Origin: Bacillus sp. 103mf
GTDB taxonomy: Bacteria; Bacillota; Bacilli; Bacillales; Bacillaceae_G
DNA: 64,000 bases
Direction of reading: 5' to 3'
NCBI RefSeq assembly: GCF_900116295.1
Contig: NZ_FPAF01000011.1
Span: 62,001 to 126,000, forward strand
Part shown: positions 50,282 through 56,747 of the stretch, piece by piece
Numbering within the stretch: position 1 is the first letter of the stretch
How the letters are laid out: every line of letters begins with the position of its first letter
Program-made: the position numbers and the translations under genes
Notes under the pieces: generated by a model
Database searches by the model: none
The model's input: only the letters and a program-made list of their open reading frames with translations
Told to the model about the DNA's origin: nothing

Positions 50282-50290
50282 GAAAACGAA

Positions 50291-50320
50291 AAGAACATGC
50301 AGGTTAACCTGCATGTTCTT
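50291..50320. terminator. Perfect 30-bp palindrome terminator
   Basis: AAGAACATGCAGGTT and AACCTGCATGTTCTT are joined without a loop, and the minus strand continues TTCGTTTTC. It begins 3 bp after the stop of the 46-residue gene and closes the operon from the right. Confidence 0.8.
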
Positions 50321-50322
50321 TA

Positions 50323-50463
50323 TTATTCTTCTACAGTTTCATTTTCTTCTTTAATAATACCGTTATCAATAGATTGAGTATCTTTATTCTCCATACAAAC
50401 CATTGCGTGATAAACTTCTGCATACAATCCAAACACTTGGTACACACTTCCAAGAAACGGCAT
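50323..50463 (-). CDS. 46-residue protein downstream of the tubulin-like operon
   Basis: A small gene (MPFLGSVYQVFGLYAEVYHA, MVCMENKDTQSIDNGIIKEE, NETVEE). The first half is hydrophobic and may insert in or lie on a membrane; the second half is acidic. AGAGGG lies 6 bases before the ATG and a strong terminator follows immediately. It is 57 bp after the stop of the tubulin-like gene, same strand, so it may be the third gene of that operon. I do not recognise it. Confidence 0.6.
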   Translation of the reverse strand: MPFLGSVYQVFGLYAEVYHAMVCMENKDTQSIDNGIIKEENETVEE

Positions 50464-50519
50464 AAGAATCCCTCTTTTCAAAATAATACATTCCAAAGTT
50501 AAGGATTCCCTATCTTTTC

Positions 50520-53500
50520 TTAAACATTCGTTTTTGTATCTTCCTCTTCGATTTGTATATTAAGAAGATGTAACCATTTCTTATATGGTGCACTGTTAGG
50601 ATCTACAAATTCTTTTGCGTATGAGCGATTCCATAGTTGTTTTACAAATAAAGCTGCTTCTTTTTTAGCCGCTGATTCTGCACCAGTCCCGTAATAAGTT
50701 TTAAAATACTGTTCAATTTCATCCATAAGTAATCGTAATAACTCATCCGAAGTTTCTTCTAACGTTGAATCATATTTCGCTTCCTTATCATACATTAAGA
50801 TAATGTCTAAAATATTATGAACATGTTCTTTTCGAAGCCACCTTATATCTTGCGCACCTAATACAAATGAATGTGTATACAAATGTCCTCCATGTTGCAA
50901 CGCTTTTTCCTTCTCTTCTTCAAAACGAGAAATGATGTTTTCATATATAAATGGATTATGAAGCAAGGCACGGTGTAATTTATACCCTTCATTCGTTACA
51001 TTTTTCCCCATCGATTGAATAAGAGAACTTCGGCCCACTCCGTTATATTGGTAAACGAACTGACCATCTACCGCCGCAAGGCTAATCCAGCGATATATAT
51101 ATGCATATAATAAAGCGCGATTACATTTCTCATAATCTAACTTCGTTTGCGTTGCATTTAAATCTGGCATAAACGCTGGCAAATGCCAATATTTATCGAG
51201 ATGAGGCGTTAAATTTGATTTACGAATGTTTAATTTATTTACGCGGCGATAATACGCTTGAAAGTAGTCTCCCTTCTCATTCACATAACCATTTACAAGA
51301 TGTCCGGACGATAACTTCGGAAAATCTTGTAGCGATAACCCGTAATGTGCGCGATAACATACAATTTCATACGGCGAAAAAGCTTTATCAACAGTTTCTT
51401 TTTCTTGAAACATTTCTTGGAGCGCTTCTTCATTTAATTCTTGATGAACAAATGGATGAATACCCCAATATTGTAATTCACGGTGATGCGCAACTTTTGG
51501 TATAAATGGACTTGCTAGATGTAATAAATCTTCTACTTTTTCACTGACATACTCTGTCATATCACGCCTTTGAATAGCAGCTTCTTTTCGAAGCGCTTCA
51601 ATAATATTTAATTCTAGCTTATCTCTGTATCGTTCTTTTAGTTCCTTTTCACAATACGTTAAAATGTGTTTTCGATAAAAATCTTCTACTTTTTGAGATT
51701 GCCCTTCCTCCGCCCCTGCTTCCCTGCAATATTCTCGATATAAACTCATATAAATTTCAGCAGATATCTCTTTTGGCAGCACACCATTGTTTACATGGTG
51801 ATGAATATCGTTCCATATTTCTTCTTGCATTCGTTCATCTGCTAATACGTATACATTTGTTGGATTCGTTTTCCCTTCAAATTCTTTACTTCGCTTTTGA
51901 ATATCTAATAATAAATTTTCACGTGTTTCTTGTAAATTATCAAAGAAACGCTCCCAATATTGAATCATTTTATCTACAGCTTGATATAAAGATTGATACA
52001 CAAGTTCTAGCAACATTTCTTTTCGGTACTCATTTAACTTGTGTACATATTGGGTAGCGATATCTTGAAATTCTTTTCGGAATACACGCTGTTCATTATG
52101 AAATACCTTTCCAATCCACCCCTGCTGCTGTGCGAGTTCAACACGTCGAACGGCCGTTACCGTTCCTTCAATATTACTTACATTAAACTTTTTATCGTAA
52201 TTTTGAACGAGATTACGCTTTTGCTCATTATTTTCGTGCAAACGATTCATTTTCTCCGTTAACAATTTACGAATTTCATATAACATATACCTTGCAGCAA
52301 CAGGATGAACGGGATCAGTTTTCTTCAAAAACCATGTATTTAACTGATATGACTGTCCCTCTGAACCACTTGGCGTAAAACGATCTGCTTCAATTATGTC
52401 ATATACCAATGTTGTTACATGCTCATGTACACGGCTTGGGATTGCATACGCATATAACCGCACCGCATGGTCTACTCGTGCGACTTCTCCTTTCATTTGC
52501 TCGGCAATTTTCAACTTTGCAGCCGAAATTTTACACTCACGCTGCAAACGATTTAACTCTTCATCTTTTTGCACCGTACGCTGTACATAACTTTCTACTG
52601 ACTCGAGAAACAATTTTGCTTTTGATATACCGATTTTTCCACCTTCTGCCCCTTCACGTGCTTCATAGTACATTTGTTTATAAAATACATGTGCTTGTTC
52701 TGGACGAGTCGCTAAATGTTCTAAATCCTCTAAGAAACTTTTCCCTCGCTCTGGTTTTTCACGTTGCATGCCGCGGCGAACATCTTGCTCATACCGACTT
52801 TTCTTCTCTAAAAAGAGTCGATCTAAATGAAGCCATGATTCATCTAGCCCTTGTACCGCCCATCTCAAAGCACAATAACGAAGAACATTTTCATATGGAT
52901 AAATAAGTTTCGCGACTCCCGCCCCGCAATAACGGGCTTTACCATTTGAATCAGCAAGTTGCTGAATTTGATTATCTTCCTGCGCAAAATGACTCGTTGA
53001 CATTGGACTAAATAGTTGTAAATAAATCGTATTTGTCATTTGTTCCATATAGTCAGACAAGCTATTTAAATGATGTCCATGTAAATTTTCATAATCATAT
53101 AAAAAGCAATAATTATATGGTAAGTGATGTTGCATAATTGTATGATTTGTACGACCATCTTCATCCACTTGATCAGGCCTGTATTCTAACTCAATTGTAA
53201 CGCCCCCGCGGCGTGATAATTCTCCTGTAGATCCTAATGTAATAGCGTGCAATTCTTTTAATGATGCATAGCCGTTTGCTTGCACTGCTTCAAATTCTTT
53301 CCCGCTTATTGTACGCGTCTTTACGAGAGCGTCAGGAAGCAAGAAAGCGCCGCGAATTAAAATGTTGTGATGTTGTAACTTTTTCCGAAGCATTTCTCGT
53401 AAATAAAGAGCGATTTGCAAAAACATCCCTGAACCTGTACCGCCAGCTAATGATGTAATAATAATAACTCGTACACCGTACTCTGTTTTATCACTAGTGA

Positions 53501-53882
53501 CCGGAAAAATTTTCTCAATTTCCTGCCAAAACGATGTTAATTTATCCTCCTTCATTGCCGCGCGAAGTGCTAAGCGAGAAATAACTCGAAGCTGACCTGC
53601 ACCTTCTGTTAATGGTTTATCTAGTATAGTTGGATCAATCGGAAACCAGTCTGGGATTGTTGGATCTTCTGCTATATATTCGCGCGGTGTTTTACTAGAA
53701 CTCGTTTGCGTCACAAATTTACGAATATGTTGAAAATGACTTAACGTATTAATATCTGTATCAAAGACGTGCATCGCTACTTTTTTGCGCCGTTCTAGTG
53801 GAAGCTTTCGATAAATATCATGCGTAATCGTGCTGCCAATTCCTCCGAGTCCAATTAAAATTGTCGGCACTTGAAAATCCAT
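50520..53882 (-). CDS. Large tubulin/FtsZ-like protein (Tubulin_2 type)
   Basis: A 1,120-residue cytoplasmic protein. The N terminus is a tubulin-like GTPase domain: FQVPTILIGLGGIGSTITHD (residues 3-22, the nucleotide loop) and the tubulin signature GGTGSG at residues 147-152 in ITSLAGGTGSGMFLQIALYL. After about 350 residues the sequence is helical and charged to the end, unlike FtsZ, TubZ or PhuZ. It resembles the bacterial Tubulin_2 family, which has been proposed, without experimental proof that I know of, to act in membrane remodelling. ATG 53882 is preferred, five bases after AGGTGG; the frame extends to 53891. It is 17 bp downstream of the vWA gene, so the two are one operon. Confidence 0.85.
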   Translation of the reverse strand: MDFQVPTILIGLGGIGSTITHDIYRKLPLERRKKVAMHVFDTDINTLSHFQHIRKFVTQTSSSKTPREYIAEDPTIPDWFPIDPTILDKPLTEGAGQLRVISRLALRAAMKEDKLTSFWQEIEKIFPVTSDKTEYGVRVIIITSLAGGTGSGMFLQIALYLREMLRKKLQHHNILIRGAFLLPDALVKTRTISGKEFEAVQANGYASLKELHAITLGSTGELSRRGGVTIELEYRPDQVDEDGRTNHTIMQHHLPYNYCFLYDYENLHGHHLNSLSDYMEQMTNTIYLQLFSPMSTSHFAQEDNQIQQLADSNGKARYCGAGVAKLIYPYENVLRYCALRWAVQGLDESWLHLDRLFLEKKSRYEQDVRRGMQREKPERGKSFLEDLEHLATRPEQAHVFYKQMYYEAREGAEGGKIGISKAKLFLESVESYVQRTVQKDEELNRLQRECKISAAKLKIAEQMKGEVARVDHAVRLYAYAIPSRVHEHVTTLVYDIIEADRFTPSGSEGQSYQLNTWFLKKTDPVHPVAARYMLYEIRKLLTEKMNRLHENNEQKRNLVQNYDKKFNVSNIEGTVTAVRRVELAQQQGWIGKVFHNEQRVFRKEFQDIATQYVHKLNEYRKEMLLELVYQSLYQAVDKMIQYWERFFDNLQETRENLLLDIQKRSKEFEGKTNPTNVYVLADERMQEEIWNDIHHHVNNGVLPKEISAEIYMSLYREYCREAGAEEGQSQKVEDFYRKHILTYCEKELKERYRDKLELNIIEALRKEAAIQRRDMTEYVSEKVEDLLHLASPFIPKVAHHRELQYWGIHPFVHQELNEEALQEMFQEKETVDKAFSPYEIVCYRAHYGLSLQDFPKLSSGHLVNGYVNEKGDYFQAYYRRVNKLNIRKSNLTPHLDKYWHLPAFMPDLNATQTKLDYEKCNRALLYAYIYRWISLAAVDGQFVYQYNGVGRSSLIQSMGKNVTNEGYKLHRALLHNPFIYENIISRFEEEKEKALQHGGHLYTHSFVLGAQDIRWLRKEHVHNILDIILMYDKEAKYDSTLEETSDELLRLLMDEIEQYFKTYYGTGAESAAKKEAALFVKQLWNRSYAKEFVDPNSAPYKKWLHLLNIQIEEEDTKTNV

Positions 53883-53899
53883 GTGAACCACCTTCCTAT

Positions 53900-55996
53900 T
53901 TATTCACATTCATACTTATATAACTCTTTTCCATATCCACGATCAATGACAACCATTTCGTTCGGATATAACGTTTTATGTTCACGTCCTGCTTCTTCAT
54001 CTGTTAAAAACATACCATCGATCACCATACCTGGTACTTGAGAATCTTTCGTCACAAATATAGATTTTGAACCTTTTTTTGCAATAAACGTAACGGACTG
54101 CACGGTTTTCCGCTCTGCTCGAAATGGAATACCAAAATAATGATTCCACCATTTTGTCCGCAGCGGTTCTGGTTCAGATTTGTATAACCAATCTTCCGCA
54201 ATAGATTGATCCCACTCATAATATATAAGCGCCTTCCTATGAAAACGCGGACGAACCACCCATCCAACAATAAGAGTTGCAATCATGAGTAAGATGATAC
54301 TAAACGGTAAAACGAGCCCGAAAATGATCGCATAACGCTCGAAAAAAGGGACATCGATAATCGAAAGTGAAATTTGTTTACTCACTTTTTGTAATTGTGA
54401 ATCTCGTAATGTGATGGTAGCTTCTACGGTGCCGGTATCTGTAAAATTAAATGTGTTGGAGTAATAAGGACGAGGATAGACGTACAGTTGATTTCTATGT
54501 TGCTTTATCTCATAGTTGATAGATTTATGAAATGTAACAGTAGCTGTTTTCAGTAATTCCTTTACTTCTGCTTCTGACATTGCTTTATCATTCAATAGCG
54601 GCTGTATGATAAATGGTTCACTATGCTTTAAATTTGTTACTTTTTCTGTATAATTCGTTGTCACAACTTGTAATGATAGTTTTGGTTTTGGAACAGATTG
54701 AATATAAAATTCTTTCGTTTGGCGATAAAATCCTTTTATATTCATGTGTACATTTCCGCGTACCGATTCTTTTCCTATCTTTGTTTCATAGTAAAAGGCT
54801 TTCCGCTCTCTACTCCATTTCATCGCATACATTTGACCATTTATTTCTATTTGTGCGGAAAAATATGAAGTATCTACTGGTACATTTGTTGGTTTTGCTT
54901 CTATAATTGCTGTTTGACCTTCATAGAATTGTTCGGTTGTCTTTTTCTGCTCTTTTTCATAAGTGGAAATCGTATAATCTAATGCTGGTTCGACAAGCAC
55001 TTTCATATTTTCCTTTGAAACTACTTGATCAATTTCTACTATATATGCACCGGGTTCGATTACATCATTATTTTTAGACATAATATGTGTAATGCCACCA
55101 TATAGCCCCATTCCTGCCGGTGCTTGAATCGAAAATTTTGATTGTAACTGGAGTGACCCTTTTATATTTTGAATACGATATGGCACTTTCTGAGAAGATT
55201 GATTAACAAGCGTAATTCGTTTTAATGGAAACGGTGTAGTAATTTCCATTTTATTTCCTACTATATTTGTTTTCACCGCTTCTTCTACTGCTGAAAATGG
55301 ATCACGATTCGCTACCAATGCAGCCGCTTGATTAACACTGTGAATAACACCATCTTCTCCGCTTGTAGGTAGCACGCTTCCATTCGTTTGTTTTTTCCAA
55401 ATCTCTTTAAAGCTGTTCATTTGTATTTGTTCTTGCGTTCCTAAATTTTCTTCCATTGTAATTAATACCGCATGTAAAGAAACTTTTTTTGCTTCCATTT
55501 CTTTTTTAAACTTACTTAACGTTTCTGAAATTCGCTTTTTCGCACTATCATCTTGCTTTTCTAACTCATTAAAAGCACCATCCGTTAGAACAATAAGCCA
55601 AAATTCTCGATTGGCATTTACCTGAGCTTCCCTCTTAATCGATTGAATTGCCGTTTCTACCGATTGAAAAGGGGTATTAACTTGCTCATTCCATGTTTGA
55701 ATCTTGTCAATCTCTCCTTGTCGCTTACTATTCTCTAAAGAAACAGATATCTCCCCTGCTGGATGACTCATTGGCACATAAGAAAACGTATCCTTTTCAT
55801 CTAGCAATGCAATCAAACTTTGCAGGGCATAATTGGCATATTTCCATCGATCGTTATTACGCATACTTCCAGAATCATCATACACAAGTGAAACGACACG
55901 CTGTCTTCCCTCTTCTCCTTTCGCTAAATTAGAAAAAGGGTTCATACATACAAATAGCAAAAACAAAATAGTTGTGGCTATGATTCGAGTGTACAT
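53900..55996 (-). CDS. Single-pass membrane protein with extracytoplasmic vWA domain
   Basis: A 698-residue protein. A signal peptide (IIATTILFLLFVCMNPFSNL) is followed at once by a vWA domain with MIDAS motif VSLVYDDSGSM (DxSxS at 40-44) and VLTDGAFNEL for the third metal residue. About 300 residues of beta-rich repeats follow, then one membrane helix (about residues 553-581, AIIFGLVLPFSIILLMIATL) and a 117-residue cytoplasmic tail. Such proteins bind ligands or partners through the metal site. ATG 55996 is chosen (signal peptide begins there); an AAAGGTGG site is about 12 bases upstream. First gene of the operon with the tubulin-like gene. Confidence 0.85.
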   Translation of the reverse strand: MYTRIIATTILFLLFVCMNPFSNLAKGEEGRQRVVSLVYDDSGSMRNNDRWKYANYALQSLIALLDEKDTFSYVPMSHPAGEISVSLENSKRQGEIDKIQTWNEQVNTPFQSVETAIQSIKREAQVNANREFWLIVLTDGAFNELEKQDDSAKKRISETLSKFKKEMEAKKVSLHAVLITMEENLGTQEQIQMNSFKEIWKKQTNGSVLPTSGEDGVIHSVNQAAALVANRDPFSAVEEAVKTNIVGNKMEITTPFPLKRITLVNQSSQKVPYRIQNIKGSLQLQSKFSIQAPAGMGLYGGITHIMSKNNDVIEPGAYIVEIDQVVSKENMKVLVEPALDYTISTYEKEQKKTTEQFYEGQTAIIEAKPTNVPVDTSYFSAQIEINGQMYAMKWSRERKAFYYETKIGKESVRGNVHMNIKGFYRQTKEFYIQSVPKPKLSLQVVTTNYTEKVTNLKHSEPFIIQPLLNDKAMSEAEVKELLKTATVTFHKSINYEIKQHRNQLYVYPRPYYSNTFNFTDTGTVEATITLRDSQLQKVSKQISLSIIDVPFFERYAIIFGLVLPFSIILLMIATLIVGWVVRPRFHRKALIYYEWDQSIAEDWLYKSEPEPLRTKWWNHYFGIPFRAERKTVQSVTFIAKKGSKSIFVTKDSQVPGMVIDGMFLTDEEAGREHKTLYPNEMVVIDRGYGKELYKYECE

Positions 55997-56208
55997 GTTG
56001 AAGCTTCGCCACCTTTGTAGACAAATTCCTATGTTTAAACTTATGAGAAGAAATACAAGATATGACTTGTATTTCAAAAAACAAATATAATTATAATATT
56101 ATTATGTCAACTGATTGTAAAGAAAAAGAGATGAATGTCTTGTTTTTGATTTCTATTTATAAATATTTTGCTATGTTTTCAAATCCTTATTTTCTTTTTA
56201 TTATAACA

Positions 56209-56243
56209 ACAATAAGAGTGCCCTCTATAAGCACTCTTATTGT
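56209..56243 (-). terminator. Intrinsic terminator of the 111-residue gene
   Basis: CAATAAGAGTGC (56210-56221) pairs with GCACTCTTATTG (56231-56242), T-rich on the minus strand. It overlaps the gene's stop codon and separates it from the vWA operon. Confidence 0.75.
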
Positions 56244-56572
56244 TTCACATATACTTCTACAACCGGATTTTCTTTTCGGTCGGCATGAAGACGAATATTA
56301 CTTTCTTTCGTATCATAAATAGTCGCTAGCAGTAATACTGTTAATAGGTTAGGAATTTTGCTATCTGTTCCAAATTTTCGTTCAAGTGCTTCCTTATACT
56401 CAAACGCAAGATCTCCCTGTACATATGTATACACTTCAAATCCATCCTTTAAATCACAAACAATACTATCAATAATATCGGCTCCAACTTGACGCACCAT
56501 TTCTTTTCGCAGTGCATCTATTAATTCCTCCCACGACATTTCATACGTTTGAAACGTATCTGAACGATTCAT
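56237..56572 (-). CDS. Uncharacterised 111-residue protein
   Basis: An acidic soluble protein beginning MNRSDTFQTYEMSWEELIDA, with helix-rich middle (LRKEMVRQVGADIIDSIVCD) and ending VVEVYVKQ. I do not recognise the family. AAAGGAG lies 8 bases before ATG 56572; the frame extends to 56596 without a better site. It is a separate transcription unit, next to but not in the vWA operon. Confidence 0.7.
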   Translation of the reverse strand: MNRSDTFQTYEMSWEELIDALRKEMVRQVGADIIDSIVCDLKDGFEVYTYVQGDLAFEYKEALERKFGTDSKIPNLLTVLLLATIYDTKESNIRLHADRKENPVVEVYVKQ

Positions 56573-56747
56573 TTTTTTCTCTCCTTTTCGTTTCATCTAA
56601 CAGGCAACAGTTTTTTTCATTACTAACATCATTCTTTCCCTATCCTTCCCGTTTTTCATCACAATTATGAAGGAATAGACAAACGTACAAGCCACTGTTG
56701 TCCCTATATCATATAGTAATATTGGAAAGAGAAAGGGGAGAAATTAT

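Follow-up and report, generated by a model that had tools for sequence, protein, structure and literature searches.

A von Willebrand factor A membrane protein gene paired with an FtsZl1/Tubulin_2 gene behind a probable sigma-E-type promoter in Bacillus sp. 103mf

The locus and its two main proteins

The subject of this study is a gene pair of Bacillus sp. 103mf that encodes a membrane protein with a von Willebrand factor A (vWA) domain and a large tubulin-like protein of the Tubulin_2 (FtsZl1) family. The whole stretch analyzed, referred to as the window, comprises 64,000 nucleotides (nt) of contig NZ_FPAF01000011.1 (assembly GCF_900116295.1, positions 62,001 to 126,000); its G+C content is about 35%, and no tRNA gene was found in it. 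A preliminary description of this DNA had reported an operon of a vWA gene, a tubulin-like gene and a very small third gene closed by a palindromic terminator, and the coordinates and sizes of these elements, all on the minus strand, were confirmed. The vWA gene starts with ATG and is followed, after a gap of 17 nt, by the Tubulin_2 gene, whose product has 1,120 residues from the ATG at 53882 or 1,123 if translation starts at the GTG at 53891. The third open reading frame (ORF) encodes 46 residues from the ATG at 50463, or 57 from the TTG at 50496, and the palindrome after it is a terminator-like hairpin at 50321-50290. The features are listed below.

56042..56065, minus strand: probable sigma-E-type promoter, TCATAT-N14-CATA, 45 nt 5' of the vWA start codon; at the corresponding place in 5/5 relatives
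53900..55996, minus strand: vWA membrane protein, 698 residues
55916..55996, minus strand: predicted signal peptide region, about residues 1-27 (hydropathy only)
55865..55879, minus strand: metal ion-dependent adhesion site (MIDAS) motif DxSxS (DDSGS, residues 40-44), invariant in 5/5 aligned orthologues
54251..54325, minus strand: predicted single transmembrane helix, about residues 558-582 (hydropathy only)
53903..54250, minus strand: predicted cytosolic tail, 116 residues, without Pfam match; 37% invariant
50520..53882, minus strand: Tubulin_2/FtsZl1 protein, 1,120 residues (PF13809, E 7.4e-75)
52848..53861, minus strand: Tubulin_2 domain, residues 8-345 (Pfam); residues 1-350 are 73% invariant across 5 orthologues
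53832..53852, minus strand: T1-type nucleotide loop GLGGIGS (sequence motif)
53427..53444, minus strand: T4 tubulin signature GGTGSG (sequence motif)
50523..52847, minus strand: C-terminal region, about 775 residues, sub-threshold Pfam matches only
50323..50463, minus strand: 46-residue ORF, probably a shortened relative of a gene of about 100 codons seen in related loci
50290..50321, minus strand: intrinsic-terminator-like hairpin, 14 pairs

The tubulin-like protein matches PF13809 (Tubulin_2) over residues 8-345 with 252.8 bits against a cut-off of 27, and PF00091 (Tubulin) at residues 131-170 with 25 bits, under the cut-off of 33 (E 2.7e-5). The two motifs noticed at the outset, the GLGGIGS loop and GGTGSG, lie at residues 11-17 and 147-152. 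In alignment A1 the motif GxGGxG is invariant in 9/9 rows and GGTGSG is kept in eight of the nine, the exception being locus L062 with GATGSG. The protein would be expected to bind guanine nucleotide and may adopt a tubulin fold. Its long C-terminal region has no Pfam family over cut-off, and a sequence search of solved structures with the whole protein returned no match. When 38 Tubulin_2 rows were aligned as a profile with FtsZ, the result (E 4.3e-6, probability 72%) was of low confidence, and the 13 rows of the window's own clade (see below) gave no match to FtsZ when used alone. A role as a stand-in for FtsZ was ruled out: an FtsZ-type match over cut-off was found in all 11 genomes tested, each of which has a match to the Tubulin_2 family or profile too, and the Tubulin_2 protein is therefore not the division protein.

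The vWA protein has a VWA_2 match at residues 37-140 that falls slightly under the cut-off (24.7 bits against 27, E 3.8e-5). The MIDAS motif, T108 and D139 are invariant among the five aligned orthologues, that of L004 being aligned from five residues past its ATG. Hydropathy reveals an N-terminal hydrophobic core and one transmembrane segment, in agreement with the signal peptide and single helix proposed earlier, and the predicted topology agrees with the placement of the MIDAS side outside the cell. The same architecture extends to other members of the family: all 16 vWA proteins examined have a MIDAS-like motif and a best transmembrane segment followed by a tail of 98-163 residues, and 15 have an N-terminal hydrophobic core, the sixteenth (L063) having had an over-extended start (hydropathy only in each case). 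Over five sequences, 38% of residues are invariant in the vWA domain, 17% in the remaining ectodomain and 37% in the cytosolic tail, with 73% in the first 350 residues of the tubulin-like protein as a reference. The ectodomain thus diverges faster than the tail, and the greater constraint on the tail fits a cytosolic partner. An FHA-like character of the tail, an impression gained by eye, was dropped for want of Pfam support. The search of solved structures with the vWA protein gave two matches only, at E 0.15 and 0.48.

Close relatives and the probable upstream promoter

Four relatives of the locus were confirmed among 52 pattern matches, three from Ectobacillus and one from Bacillus sp. 165, and a fifth (G005) came from a family search that had a match in 6 of 19 genomes. 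The linkage of the two genes, for which the preliminary description had proposed a check in other genomes, holds in all six close loci (the window and these five), and in each relative the vWA gene is immediately upstream of the Tubulin_2 gene. The tubulin-like protein is 79-81% identical to those of the relatives (L004: 67%) and the vWA protein 50-54% (L004: 41%). Genomes G001-G005 have one Tubulin_2 match each (at E 0.001), and one vWA gene was found per locus. The downstream neighbours in the window are common to 5/5 relatives and the upstream neighbours to two of them (L002 and L003), the window having two extra large genes in between. Given these common neighbours, the locus is most simply read as vertically inherited, and a mobile or defence-island locus was ruled out on the same counts. 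Just upstream of the operon, at 56237-56596, the window encodes a 119-residue protein with a weak sub-threshold FabMG match, and a homologue of it sits upstream of the operon in L002 as well.

The tiny third gene did not stand as a conserved part of the operon. At the protein level the 46-residue ORF matches the first 19 or so residues of a gene of about 100 codons located after the tubulin gene in L003, L041 and L004; in none of the three comparisons did any of 2,000 shuffles do equally well. At the DNA level the match to L003, unlike those to L041 and L004, exceeds the best of 500 shuffles. In L001 and L002 no such ORF was seen within 450 nt after the tubulin gene. A three-gene system was rejected on this distribution (short in the window, intact in three of the five relatives, none seen in two), and the ORF of the window is probably decaying and dispensable for the pair.

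Alignment of about 300 nt 5' of the vWA gene from the six loci revealed one strongly conserved block in an otherwise diverged flank, and this block is a probable sigma-E promoter of the close Bacillaceae group. Among eight sigma-factor patterns tried, sigma-E alone matched all six upstream regions, the form TCATAT-N14-CATA lying 44-68 nt 5' of the vWA start in 6/6 loci. The exact pattern occurs once in the window (0.30 expected; at least one in 26 of 100 shuffles) and six times in a set of 119 loci that totals 1.10 Mb with overlaps counted; five of these occurrences are the promoters described here and the sixth is in L093. By a weighted score with a maximum of 21, the six regions reached 20, 20, 18, 19, 19 and 17; among 3,000 random segments of 150 nt, 13.6% reach 17, 3.8% reach 18 and 1.1% reach 19. 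A sigma-E family match was present in 10/10 genomes searched, over cut-off in eight that include all five relatives. SpoIVA was found in these five as well, and the host of the window is itself a probable spore-former. The spoIVA gene is sigma-E-controlled in B. subtilis, and a conserved TCATA...TCATA arrangement lies upstream of it in 5/5 relatives. In G003 another intergenic exact match, one of two others there with a nearby ORF, precedes a D-Ala-D-Ala carboxypeptidase-like gene (below family cut-offs). The -10 element is common to sigma-E and sigma-K, and position 4 of the -35 element is T for sigma-E (PMC517825). A SpoIIID-like site (consensus WWRRACARNY) was exact in three of the six loci, the window not among them, and was left unused as too degenerate.

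The wider family

In the class of G001, 48 of 299 genomes have a PF13809 match, which is over cut-off in 46, and the A1 profile was matched in 10 of 398 genomes of the phylum and 9 of 391 genomes of the class of G384. The members from the latter class are probably Clostridia, and the larger group from the class of G001 appears to be Paenibacillus-type. In a tree of 38 N-terminal domains the window falls into a clade of 13 rows (support 100/99), made up of six close Bacillaceae, five from the G384 class, one fecal contig and one Azospirillum plasmid. The 17 Paenibacillus-type (GAP1-type) rows are separate, and a single clade of these with the six close rows was rejected (p-AU 8e-89). Nine rows lie outside both groups, and several branches are long, so that their placement is unsure.

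The pairing extends beyond the close loci: a vWA gene is present in all 13 loci of the clade and immediately upstream in 11, the other two being L089 and L062. The fecal contig, L061 (MT836542.1), is a human-feces record labelled 'Bacteriophage sp.' that carries the pair of a vWA-transmembrane gene and a Tubulin_2 gene together with a purine-biosynthesis-looking gene, and is probably a fragment of a bacterial chromosome; scans of viral contigs gave nothing of use. In Azospirillum sp. TSA2s (L064, 7665-14629) two genes of the caspase family, encoded on the opposite strand, come after the Tubulin_2 gene, and OmpA-family genes lie in the vicinity. Three G384-class loci have enough sequence for their downstream genes to be judged (L086, L089 and L092), and in each the tubulin gene is followed by a gene of 650-700 codons with two predicted transmembrane segments and one of 1,000-1,465 codons. 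The longer genes, which encode a membrane protein, are homologous among the three loci; homology of the shorter ones could be detected only for the pair L086 and L092. No Pfam or NCBIfam family was matched over cut-off by the extra proteins tested, and in the close relatives neither gene comes after the tubulin gene. Comparison of the third genes of the various operons gave nothing over 20% probability apart from two matches: a weak one of the third gene of L087 to the N-terminal part of the tubulin-like protein (E 0.001 over 44 columns), and that of the second tubulin-like gene of the GAP1-type group to its own tubulin gene.

Gene order was counted in 22 of 24 loci (5 close and 17 GAP1-type), the other two (L042 and L050) having no BLASTP anchor. 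All 17 Paenibacillus-type loci have a gene of the vWA cluster just upstream of the tubulin gene, a second gene, from a single cluster, directly downstream, and a gene of the GAP1 cluster farther on; a gene of the DO-GTPase cluster is present in 15 of the 17. In L052 and L043, the two loci for which Pfam names were looked up, the second gene has weak, sub-threshold similarity to tubulin. Neither GAP1-N2 nor DO-GTPase2 was found in the five close-relative genomes (0/5 each; DO-GTPase1 was not searched genome-wide). Membership of the window locus in a GAP1-N2 system was therefore rejected, and the vWA-tubulin pair stands alone in these relatives. The arrangement of two tubulin-like and two vWA genes known from Firmicutes was likewise not encountered among them, each having one of either kind.

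More distant relatives occur on plasmids of Meiothermus taiwanensis, Allomeiothermus silvanus and Thermus oshimai, in the order vWA, Tubulin_2, a protein of about 680 residues without recognized family, and BrxL (3/3). The Thermaceae plasmid loci are:

L119, 14060-22137
L117, 12120-21212
L118, 12158-20117

An insertion sequence element precedes BrxL in one of them, a helicase gene is nearby, and methyltransferase-type genes are present in two. The M. taiwanensis locus adjoins matches to HmaA, HmaB and HmaC. A literature search by terms found no paper joining three of BREX, BrxL, tubulin-like and von Willebrand. This gene order opens another, independent way of approaching the family, here in a defence context.

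A possible sporulation module and its alternatives

The explanation that we find best, with belief and doubt in about equal measure, is that the two genes form a compact FtsZl1/vWA module used during sporulation, a membrane-bound, envelope-shaping assembly of the mother cell. A sigma-E-type promoter on the pair points to the mother cell at this stage of development. There, sigma-E RNA polymerase would transcribe the two genes together; the vWA protein would be exported through the mother-cell membrane, the outer forespore membrane included, so as to expose its metal-binding domain outside and leave its tail of 116 residues in the cytosol; and the cytosolic tubulin relative, binding guanine nucleotide, might be recruited to that tail. 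The resulting assembly could assist in shaping or holding the membrane, or else the spore envelope, that surrounds the forespore. A bolder form of the proposal, which we regard as rather doubtful, is that some Bacillaceae possess a sporulation-specific FtsZl1 polymer in the mother cell that is connected across the outer forespore membrane with an external vWA protein and acts in engulfment or in building of the spore envelope. If so, the apparatus that forms endospores would include a tubulin relative, and B. subtilis, in which as a control genome no PF13809 match was found, does the same engulfment or envelope work without a Tubulin_2 protein.

Controls on the promoter were mixed, and a number of observations weigh against the sporulation module. 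The exact pattern was written after the alignment had been viewed, and the score weights were set from a consensus whose letters, beyond the shared -10 element and the T of the -35 element, are general background; moreover, the six loci are related and their counts are not independent. The score of L004, 17, is the one reached by 13.6% of random segments. A sigma-A-like site, TTTACA-17-TATTAT (10/12), lies further upstream at 56121-56093, such sites not exceeding their expected number in the window (28 against 29.6). G003 shows only a mild excess of the exact pattern over its reversed control (27 matches against 18), and 17 of the 27 fall inside ORFs. Upstream of spoIVA the scores are 16-18, unexceptional by the random-segment null; spoIIIAA, expected to be under sigma-E control, has no such site in 5/5 relatives (start codons uncertain); and upstream regions of ftsZ score 13-18 in 14 loci, one of them reaching 18. 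The strict form was absent from all 27 upstream regions of more distant members, with one looser match, so a sporulation role is not general for the family. The T7 loop of FtsZ was not recognized in the profile alignment (low confidence). The main text of a 2025 B. anthracis sporulation study by Tn-seq, in the parts available, mentions neither a tubulin nor a vWA protein (PMC12700454), and the literature searched (titles, abstract starts and passages) held no tie of the FtsZl1/Tubulin_2 family to sporulation.

Other settings for the pair have to be considered. An anti-phage conflict module, in which the tubulin-like protein would assemble on the membrane upon sensing of an invader, is suggested by the placement of Firmicutes tubulin and vWA genes in GAP1-N2 systems (Kaur et al. 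2020, PMC7159879), by the match of our second locus group to those systems (a DO-GTPase and two vWA genes in L052, GAP1-N2 in L043), and by the plasmid relatives with BrxL, one of them beside HmaA/B/C. For the window itself we consider this quite unlikely: its proteins have no PADLOC match, the GAP1-N2 and DO-GTPase2 partners were not found in the five relatives, and the promoter belongs to a developmental class. Loci for defence generally differ between genomes in where and whether they occur, whereas this neighbourhood is common to the relatives. We think equally improbable a general machine for envelope or membrane remodelling in growing cells, acting in surface-structure assembly, motility or transport, although Makarova and Koonin proposed such a role from operon context (PMC2875224), Synechocystis mutants in the Tubulin_2 gene sll0445 and in the adjacent sll0446 and sll0447 are impaired in phototaxis (PMC9880817), and the window has the sigma-A-like site noted above. 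Against it stand the sigma-E pattern, alone of the eight in being matched at all six loci, and the sigma-A pattern matches of the window and L041, which lie at differing places.

Whether the tubulin-like protein polymerizes at all is a separate matter. That it is a non-polymerizing, nucleotide-regulated switch or scaffold, which would be compatible with any of these settings, is possible, though we lean against it. The T7 loop and C-terminal tubulin domain that escaped our low-confidence profile alignment speak for a switch, as does the finding of Makarova and Koonin that T6-H7 and the C-terminal domain could not be recognized (PMC2875224). On the other side, the nucleotide loops are nearly unchanging across A1, and the same authors deem filaments formed by a novel mechanism likelier than none. 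The probable sigma-E-type promoter on the two-gene form supplies a definite time and compartment in which to seek the function of the family, in a simple system of two proteins.

Comparison with known systems

The preliminary description took the system to be a good candidate for an undescribed one, and this did not hold. The family was named FtsZl1 by Makarova and Koonin (2010), who saw vWA genes in most of its predicted operons and suggested a role in membrane remodelling, and a published reviewer comment lists BT9727_3336 of B. thuringiensis among the associated vWA proteins with a signal peptide (PMC2875224). Related loci of Firmicutes were described in 2020 (PMC7159879). Beyond one phototaxis study, the literature searched, as far as available, contained no experimentally supported FtsZl1 function.

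With FtsZl1 as described, the window shares the domain, the vWA partner, the N-terminal loops and a long C-terminal region, which in the family is expected to comprise a coiled coil and then a helical domain, but no OmpA, kinase or GTPase gene was recognized beside the pair, and the available text of that paper does not mention a sigma-E promoter (PMC2875224). The GAP1-N2 tubulin theme likewise combines vWA and tubulin-like genes in Firmicutes (PMC7159879), while the type seen here has one gene of each kind and relatives without GAP1-N2 and DO-GTPase2. Sll0445 of Synechocystis is also a Tubulin_2 protein; its neighbours, however, are reported to encode FtsA-domain and DivIC-domain proteins, and its phenotype is in phototaxis (PMC9880817). 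TubZ/RepX represent the tubulin superfamily on plasmids of Bacillus (PMC2875224). In contrast to the window protein, with its 1,120 residues and a neighbourhood shared with the genomes of relatives, proteins of the TubZ/RepX kind are shorter and serve plasmid replication or partition. Set against these systems, the stand-alone vWA-tubulin pair under a sigma-E-type promoter is likely the new element.

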